Part shown: one piece after another, positions 7,320 to 9,077 of the stretch | Numbering within the stretch: the stretch's first letter is position 1 | How the letters are laid out: each line of letters opens with the position of its first letter | NCBI GenBank assembly: GCA_944323335.1 | Contig: CALUSB010000005.1 | Coordinates: 1 to 64,000, forward strand | Direction of reading: 5' to 3' | Length of the DNA stretch: 64,000 nucleotides | Source of the DNA: Candidatus Gastranaerophilales bacterium | Lineage (GTDB): Bacteria; Cyanobacteriota; Vampirovibrionia; Gastranaerophilales; Gastranaerophilaceae | The notes under the pieces: generated by a model | Seen by the model: the letters and a program-made list of their open reading frames with translations, nothing else | The model's database searches: none | What the model was told of the DNA's origin: nothing | Program-made: the position numbers and the translations under genes

Positions 7320-7371
7320 ATAAAGAATAGATAAAGATTGTATACTATGCTGGACAAAAATATTTTTTGGG

Positions 7372-7412
7372 TGTAAAATACTAGGGCTTAATTTAAGAGA
7401 AGGTATTTTACA
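7372..7412 (+). promoter_or_regulatory. 10-bp perfect inverted repeat around a small-ORF ribosome binding site
   Basis: TGTAAAATAC (7372-7381) and GTATTTTACA (7403-7412) are exact reverse complements separated by 21 bases. In RNA this hairpin would hold the GAGAAGG ribosome site (7397-7403) at the 3' edge of the loop and pair the A of the small-ORF ATG. As DNA it could be an operator. Confidence 0.55.
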
Positions 7413-7492
7413 TGCTAAAAACTTTATTTGAATTACTGCGACGTAGATTTTGCAAGTTACAGGAGGCTCGCATTTACGTTCGTATTGATTAA
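7412..7492 (+). CDS. Possible 26-residue leader peptide or small protein
   Basis: ATG at 7412 is preceded by GAGAAGG with an eight-base gap and runs to TAA at 7490-7492. The peptide is basic: it starts MLKTLFELL, then three consecutive Arg codons (7439-7447), and has five Arg in total. It lies directly before a strong terminator, and an internal segment can pair with that terminator's 5' arm. That layout fits a leader peptide of an attenuator. A free-standing small protein is the alternative. Confidence 0.4.
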   Translation: MLKTLFELLRRRFCKLQEARIYVRID

Positions 7493-7534
7493 AATAAATA
7501 ATTGAATATGAATTTTCCAAAGAGCCGCCTGTAA
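7457..7534 (+). promoter_or_regulatory. Possible antiterminator pairing (attenuator)
   Basis: TTACAGGAGGCTC at 7457-7469 can pair at 12 of 13 positions with GAGCCGCCTGTAA at 7522-7534. The second segment is the 5' arm and loop of the terminator at 7520-7548. The two structures exclude each other, as in transcription attenuators. Confidence 0.45.
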
Positions 7535-7548
7535 GACGGCTCTTTTAG
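7520..7548 (+). terminator. Rho-independent terminator in the 7.3-7.7 kb gap
   Basis: AAGAGCCG (7520-7527) pairs with CGGCTCTT (7537-7544), followed by TTAGTTT. It lies 180 bp before the next large gene and could act as the terminator half of an attenuator. Confidence 0.7.
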
Positions 7549-7632
7549 TTTAAAATTTTTAACAAAAGTGTATAAAATACGCAAAAAAATGTCATCACAA
7601 GTGTTATTTAATAAGTGAAGGTAGATAAAGTA

Positions 7633-7707
7633 ATGAAAAATATACGACGTTCTCTACAAATTAATAAGGGGGTTCAAAGGTTTATGAACCTTATTTGGGG
7701 ACTATAG
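7633..7707 (+). CDS. Possible 24-residue ORF overlapping a hairpin
   Basis: ATG 7633 follows GAAGG (7617-7621) at a somewhat long spacing and ends at TAG 7705-7707. The peptide begins MKNIRRSLQ and ends in IWGL. Its 3' part contains a hairpin: AATAAGG-GGG-TTCA (7663-7676) against TGAACCTTATT (7685-7695), 11 pairs with a three-base bulge. It may be a second leader element for the 7728 gene. The rest of the 7320-7727 gap shows no other gene. Confidence 0.25.
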   Translation: MKNIRRSLQINKGVQRFMNLIWGL

Positions 7708-7727
7708 TAATTTTGTAGGGATAAAAA

Positions 7728-9077
7728 ATGTCAAACTTGAGCATAACAACAAAAATAATTCAACAACTAAGTAACAACAGCGGCTCTGTAGTACCGATTG
7801 CCGCAAAAGACACTTTAAGCAACTGTGCTATTACTTATATTTATAATAAAGAAGCATCTAAAGAAGATGGCAGGGAAAGAGCAATAGAAGAGTTTGGAAC
7901 GGAAGCTCTCTGGATTGGCGGTATACCGTTATTAAAAAAACTTTTTGATAAAACGGTTTATAAATTTTTTAAAGCTGACCCCGATTTTGATATTAGAAAT
8001 TTAAAGAAAAATGCTCAAGGCAAGCTGGATAAGCTTGAATTTCTTGCTAAAAATGCCCCTGATGTAAAGCAAAAAGAAGTTCTTGAAAATATCTTAAAAA
8101 ATGAAAATGTTCAAAAACTCTACAAAAGACTCCATGTTGCAAAGTTTATAACCGCAACCGCCGCAACTTTAGCGGGTTTGAGCGGACTTATAGTTTATAA
8201 ACAAAAAACAACTCAAAAAGAGCTTGAACAAAAATACAAGAAAAAAATGGAGCTTCAAAACGCCTGCAATAAAGAAATAAAGAAAAGCCCCGTGTTTGAT
8301 AAGTTTATGGGTAATAAAGAAACATCTTTTAAAGGCGGCGGTATATCTAAATTTTTATCAGGATTTATGTATAACCCTGTTATGAATATGTCTATACTTG
8401 ACGGTGGTATTACTGCAACAAGACTTGCTCAGGGCAGAAAAGGCGAAAGATTTGAAATAGGTTTTAAAGAAGGATTTCAAATATTATTTATTTACTGTCT
8501 TGCAGAACCCATTCAAAAAGGTCTTGAAAAGTTAAGTGCAAAATTCTTAAAAACACCTATCAAAAACGAATATCAACTTTTAAGTAATGATAAATTAAAA
8601 GAGCTTATAACATCAGAGGGTTTAAAGGACTCGGTTGAAACCCTTGTAAAATTTGATGATAATAAAGCCCTTGAATACGTATTTAAAAACCAAGACAATG
8701 CACTTGTAAAAATGCTTAAAATTTCGGGTGAATTGCCGACAATAAAGGGAAGCGATACTATTGACTCACTTGCTTTTATTGATACAAAAAAACTGAAAAA
8801 TGCCGCAAAAAATATATCCGAACTTGCTCAAAGCACGGCAGGAAAAGGGGATTTGGATAAATATTTATCCAAAGTTAAAAACATTAAGGGTGCATCTGTT
8901 ATAGCAAATATTTTAATAGGTGCAGCGGCAATAGGTATATTGCAGCCTACGCTAAATATAATCCTCAGAAAGAAAAACAACCACGGCGAAACCATTAATC
9001 CGGCTATTAAGCAACTTGAAAAAGATATGGAACAAAAGTTCGCATTTAGCGGAAGCAAACAGGTTAAACCTCAATAA
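7728..9077 (+). CDS. Hypothetical membrane-associated protein, 449 residues
   Basis: No family recognised. Probable membrane segments lie near residues 138-157, 248-262 and 386-408, separated by Lys/Glu-rich helical regions. An SFKGG motif is present at about residues 200-204 and FSGSK close to the C-terminus. Its architecture (scattered membrane helices, long charged helices, F-x-G motifs) resembles the two linked proteins at 33.6-35.3 kb, suggesting a lineage-specific family. TAGGGA six bases before the ATG supports the start. The gene follows an attenuator-like leader. Its last 14 bases overlap the 3' end of the convergent small gene. Confidence 0.75.
   Translation: MSNLSITTKIIQQLSNNSGSVVPIAAKDTLSNCAITYIYNKEASKEDGRERAIEEFGTEALWIGGIPLLKKLFDKTVYKFFKADPDFDIRNLKKNAQGKLDKLEFLAKNAPDVKQKEVLENILKNENVQKLYKRLHVAKFITATAATLAGLSGLIVYKQKTTQKELEQKYKKKMELQNACNKEIKKSPVFDKFMGNKETSFKGGGISKFLSGFMYNPVMNMSILDGGITATRLAQGRKGERFEIGFKEGFQILFIYCLAEPIQKGLEKLSAKFLKTPIKNEYQLLSNDKLKELITSEGLKDSVETLVKFDDNKALEYVFKNQDNALVKMLKISGELPTIKGSDTIDSLAFIDTKKLKNAAKNISELAQSTAGKGDLDKYLSKVKNIKGASVIANILIGAAAIGILQPTLNIILRKKNNHGETINPAIKQLEKDMEQKFAFSGSKQVKPQ

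Follow-up and report, generated by a model that had tools for sequence, protein, structure and literature searches.

A predicted ribosome-mediated transcription attenuator with arginine control codons upstream of an order-specific protein family in Gastranaerophilales

Described leader attenuators and the anatomy of the locus

The trp, his, thr, leu and phe leader attenuators combine a short ORF, control codons and an arm common to the antiterminator and the terminator, and the position of translation decides between the two. Among described leaders with arginine codons, the nearest is orf34-speF of Salmonella, in which a conserved upstream ORF carries two successive Arg codons and ribosome pausing selects the RNA structure; this leader involves Rho-dependent termination, RBS sequestration and RNase G, and its target is ornithine decarboxylase (PMC6386406). 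The leader analysed here shares with orf34-speF the consecutive Arg codons in an upstream ORF (PMC6386406), but it has an intrinsic terminator that can pair with the ORF, and the gene downstream encodes an unrelated helical protein; no sequence relation between the two leaders is claimed. At the level of sequence comparison, it displays the anatomy of the trp/his class, namely, a short ORF, control codons, an intrinsic terminator, a co-evolving antiterminator and a characteristic spacing. It differs from that class in that its target is an order-specific orphan protein without a known arginine link and in that control rests on two or three Arg codons, the first of them the rare CGA, in place of a long run. 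Furthermore, unlike the trp/his class, it belongs to Gastranaerophilales, appears to be leaderless in many of the genera and is followed by a second leader ORF. Rfam covariance models gave no match at gathering for the leader, only sub-threshold chance matches, and in the literature that was searched no leader-peptide attenuator is reported for Melainabacteria, the uncultured gut-dwelling branch of the cyanobacterial phylum studied here.

The locus lies at positions 7320–7727 of the window (the whole stretch of 64,000 nt that was analysed), in the gap between a 127-aa gene with a Pfam match to HMG-CoA_red_N and a gene for a 449-residue protein. The 181-nt leader stretch folds better than its dinucleotide shuffles (z −3.7). 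An earlier note on this DNA had described a gap free of large genes with an inverted repeat, a small ORF and a terminator; all of these are present, but a second conserved ORF, smORF2, had been overlooked. The 26-codon ORF with three successive Arg codons (hereafter ORF1) and the strong terminator, formed by AAAGAGCCG and CGGCTCTTT at 7519–7545 and followed by a T-rich tail, are seen in the sequence just as they had been described (Table 1). We propose that 7351–7727 acts as a ribosome-mediated transcription attenuator controlling an operon of smORF2 and the 449-residue protein, a reading to which we give a probability of about 0.8 on the basis of comparative sequence analysis.

Table 1. Features of the predicted attenuator and its operon
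Feature	Positions	Strand	Details
Promoter	7351–7379	+	−35 TGGACA (7351–7356), 17-nt spacer, −10 TAAAAT (7374–7379); 10/12 matches
Leader ORF1	7412–7492	+	26 codons, MLKTLFELLRRRFCKLQEARIYVRID-stop; SD AAGAGAAGG 8 nt 5'; same length in 15/15 genus genomes
Possible 1:2 hairpin inside ORF1	7437–7483	+	TACGACGTA-type arm and TACGTTCGTA (7474–7483); arms nearly invariant
Putative control codons	7439–7447	+	CGA CGT AGA (Arg-Arg-Arg); CGA CGT invariant in 15/15, AGA in 14/15
Predicted antiterminator arm b, in ORF1	7457–7469	+	TTACAGGAGGCTC, core GGCTC (7465–7469); complementary to terminator 5' arm
Conserved 3'UTR block	7505–7512	+	AATATGAA; (nearly) invariant in 15 genomes; predicted to pair with the end of ORF1 when the antiterminator forms (nascent fold)
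Intrinsic terminator	7519–7550	+	AAAGAGCCG...CGGCTCTTT and T-rich tail; 5' arm is b'; same place in other genera
smORF2, second leader ORF	7633–7707	+	24 codons, MKNIRRSLQINKGVQRFMNLIWGL-stop; 15/15 genus members, 73/80 species
Regulated gene (predicted target)	7728–9077	+	449 residues; Lys-rich, Arg-poor (66 K, 8 R), all-helical

The promoter can be aligned and is conserved in the 15 genomes of the genus, its −10 box changing only between TAAAAT and TACAAT, and promoters 5' of ORF1 score about 3–4 z units above shuffles. The transcription start probably lies near 7386. The inverted repeat that the earlier note had placed around the ribosome site does exist (TGTAAAATAC at 7372–7381 and GTATTTTACA at 7403–7412, with the SD AAGAGAAGG), but its role as an RNA element, a hairpin that sequesters the RBS, was rejected: the left arm is the −10 hexamer and is therefore placed 5' of the probable start of the transcript, leaving no hairpin in the transcript, and the arms pair without compensatory change. 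A sigma70-like promoter was sought between the terminator and smORF2 and none was detectable (mean z −0.08). Given the promoter before ORF1 and none between the terminator and smORF2, the downstream operon probably needs read-through. In many genera a TATAAT-like −10 box ends only 6–9 nt 5' of the ORF1 ATG, so that the leader mRNA in those genera is probably leaderless.

Pairing between the leader ORF and the terminator

The complementarity of 7457–7469 and 7522–7534, on which the earlier note rested its antiterminator, amounts to 12 of 13 positions here, but of the other genus members only one, which is 99% identical to this genome, matches as well. The remaining 13 members of the genus have 6–11 matches out of 13 between b and b', with the GGCTC:GAGCC core retained. 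Among the credible terminators of the window, GAGCC occurs in the leader terminator only; thus, the GAGCC type is not the house style here. In the genus alignment, 97% of cells of the terminator stem are paired and one pair is altered on both sides, and pair counts from the genus alone give no convincing covariation of the antiterminator, which has a near-constant internal mismatch. When the nascent RNA is folded as it stands before the terminator 3' arm, the antiterminator is predicted with P > 0.5 in 13 of the 15 genus genomes.

Systematic extraction of the gaps 5' of smORF2 yielded 54 usable loci from 22 genera. Other genera display the same anatomy with unrelated leader peptides (e.g. MTKLIRRNVRKFLKGLL, MLDKVIELIRRILTSRKEALIYIPIDKD and MFSELFKTIRRILQGRKKAFCRIYIER), and ORF1, the terminator, smORF2 and the same gene family are found together in about 22 genera of the family. 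Three further families of the order also have both ORF1 and smORF2, and in two of these families ORF1 has the form MRIRxYQxRCFYTN. Of 80 named species, most of them Candidatus Gastranaerophilales MAGs, 68 have ORF1, and about 12 have none that is recognisable. Paired with its own terminator 5' arm, ORF1 reaches −12.0 kcal/mol, compared with −9.0 kcal/mol for swapped arms, a difference found in 0 of 20000 permutations (one locus per genus). Moreover, the ORF1/terminator pairing has z < −2 against shuffled ORF segments in 46 of 54 loci. The spacing between Arg-Arg and the first antiterminator base is likewise narrowly held, with a median of 15.5 nt and an sd of 2.5 (16.9 in shuffled sequences; 0/200); it falls between 13 and 19 nt in 18 of 22 genera, whereas the null has a mean of 2.8 and a maximum of 8. 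Such a spacing fits a ribosome halted at Arg-Arg with its leading edge just clear of the antiterminator arm. The core of the earlier note, a leader ORF, an antiterminator and a terminator that together control the downstream gene, is supported by the co-variation of the pairing between genera, the fixed Arg-Arg spacing and the same gene family downstream throughout. It had proposed looking for compensatory changes in both pairings and for conservation of the Arg run; between genera the ORF/terminator pairing does co-vary and Arg-Arg is kept.

Fold predictions with a ribosome in place point in the same direction as far as the nascent RNA is concerned. With Arg-Arg masked, the nascent antiterminator has P > 0.5 in 54 of 54 loci, and a ribosome placed on the stop codon gives the terminator P > 0.9 in 53 of 53. 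For the full-length RNA at equilibrium and a ribosome on Arg-Arg, by contrast, the antiterminator exceeds P 0.5 in only 13 of 54 loci and the terminator mostly wins; the switch must then be kinetic, decided co-transcriptionally. According to the mechanism that we propose, transcription would begin at the start given above and a ribosome would translate ORF1. If it were slowed on CGA-CGT(-AGA), arm b, which starts about 15 nt downstream, would stay uncovered and pair with the terminator 5' arm, and transcription would extend to smORF2 and the gene for the 449-residue protein. A ribosome that reaches the stop codon would instead take b out of play, and the terminator would form. We infer both ribosome stalling and read-through at the leader from these sequence features. 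With leader peptides that differ widely over dozens of genera, the set amounts to a natural experiment on the constraints of an attenuator: the control codon, the 15-nt spacing and the co-varying arm are constrained, and the peptide sequence is free.

Arginine codon choice and the nature of the signal

The first codon of the Arg-Arg pair is CGA in 48 of 49 Arg-Arg loci, although loci within one genus are not independent. Across genera the pair is mostly CGA-CGN, the second codon being CGT, CGA, CGC or AGA; a Lys-Arg pair with CGC replaces it in some genera. In the window, 12 of 649 Arg codons are CGA (1.8%); the share is 0.4% for the downstream gene family and 33% for ORF1. The CGA figures for ORF1 are biased upward, as the ORF1 search favoured CGACG/CGAAG. 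The controls of this search gave hits in 7 of 520 window tiles, 1 of 80 antisense regions and 0 of 80 gene starts, compared with 58 of 80 upstream regions; given these low rates, the enrichment of CGA is real, even if its exact fraction is inflated. The tRNA-Arg anticodons of the genome are ACG, CCG, TCT and CCT, and a search of the genome for a tRNA-Arg with anticodon TCG found none. By established decoding rules, CGA and CGT then both depend on a single inosine tRNA, Arg-ACG, i.e. tRNA-Arg(ICG).

The signal would then be arginine, sensed as the level of charged tRNA-Arg(ICG); this is the most economical choice in view of the His-run leaders of paralogous genes (see below). It is possible, if rather doubtful, that the attenuator is real and its leader senses a general slowing of translation, brought about by ribosome-targeting drugs or through the inosine modification of tRNA-Arg for CGA, and not arginine. 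The preference for CGA, a hard-to-decode Arg codon, over the common AGA would suit such a sensor, as would its dependence on one inosine-type tRNA; yet His runs in leaders of paralogous genes are the classic amino acid pattern, and rare-isoacceptor control codons are also expected in amino acid sensing. In either case, the choice of CGA makes the idea that control codons are sensitive to isoacceptors directly testable.

Within the genus, amino acid changes in ORF1 are of the conservative kind (frame score 2.19; null −0.12 ± 0.65; 0/300), which argues for selection on the peptide reading, and the codon pattern suggests that ORF1 is translated. Of its four-fold sites, 5 of 6 are invariant, compared with 0 of 42 in the adjacent gene for the 449-residue protein, counted over those genomes (p = 3.5e-6), implying that the RNA (or DNA) is also under constraint. 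A 26-aa product that is constant within the genus, the strong nucleotide conservation and the possession of a promoter and a terminator of its own could also describe an independent small-protein gene, or a dual-function small RNA, that ends in its own terminator while the downstream operon is separate. We consider this improbable: between genera the 26-aa product is unrecognisable, yet Arg-Arg, the spacing, the terminator pairing and the downstream gene persist, and the downstream operon has no visible promoter. The stand-alone small RNA that the earlier note had offered as its alternative is not supported as the main function and figures only among the rival readings. A profile search across the family with the 26-residue peptide of the genus gave nothing convincing outside the genus, and two matches of a first DNA search were due to chance; the first impression of ORF1 as a genus-restricted gene was dropped once the gaps 5' of smORF2 in other genera were read. 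Covariation is silent, either way, on the 1:2 (pause) hairpin inside ORF1 because its arms are nearly invariant. Finally, it is very improbable that CGACG, a string seen repeatedly in ORF1 and also in many smORF2, is a nucleotide site for an RNA-binding protein with the translation of ORF1 incidental, as the string is in frame, its second Arg codon varies, some genera carry the Lys-Arg form instead and its spacing to arm b fits a ribosome footprint.

The second leader ORF and the downstream protein family

Returning to the attenuator and its predicted operon, each smORF2 that was found is followed directly by a gene related to that of the 449-residue protein. Its C-terminus, MNLIWGL-stop, is nearly invariant and synonymous codons vary freely, indicating that the peptide is selected. 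Order-wide, smORF2 has 15–45 codons, a nearly invariant (M)NL(I)WGL-stop end, a variable N-terminus and frequently CGA-CGA; a GCCCC/GGGGC hairpin spans its end in many genera. Some genera without a recognisable ORF1 retain smORF2, at times shortened and Lys-rich (MNKKSKKLKNLKWGL). A GCAA(A/T)-rich motif is present in nearly all genera between the terminator and smORF2, 50–80 nt 5' of the latter (about 7580–7588 in the window). The stretch from smORF2 to the gene start has modest structural z-scores and class-specific hairpins. We regard smORF2 as a candidate nascent-peptide or translational leader. More speculatively, the two ORFs could form a two-stage leader, in which ORF1 would read the capacity to decode CGA, set by whether the single tRNA-Arg(ICG) is charged or carries its inosine, and gate transcription, and smORF2, with CGA codons of its own and the NL(I)WGL-stop end, would serve the same gene as a second, nascent-peptide or translational checkpoint; we hold this to be unlikely on present grounds.

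The 449-residue protein is predicted to be all-helical (pLDDT 82) and has two hydrophobic, potentially membrane-spanning stretches; it is probably membrane-associated. Pfam and NCBIfam gave no match worth naming, and a fold search of its model against the PDB gave no match. A sample of the phylum yielded no family member from beyond the order; the family thus appears to be order-restricted. A paralogous group of genes in the same order has hisL-type leaders (e.g. MTARHHHTHIDPEGPGVLLLL and MFTPSVKRHHHNHHHCH), which share with the present leader a downstream protein superfamily and amino acid control codons, but have His runs in place of Arg-Arg; all of these His codons are CAT, with up to seven CAT codons. 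Leaders of these paralogues have long-range hairpins that can involve the SD of the gene, and by these SD hairpins several of the His-run leaders look translational. Tying this orphan, order-specific family to amino acid supply, with arginine in one branch and histidine in the paralogous one, would provide the first clue to its function.

The gene 5' of the attenuator varies among species of the genus, being either HMG-CoA_red_N-like and GH35 genes or a ruvC-like gene on the opposite strand, and the attenuator, smORF2 and the 449-residue gene stay linked despite the swapped neighbour.
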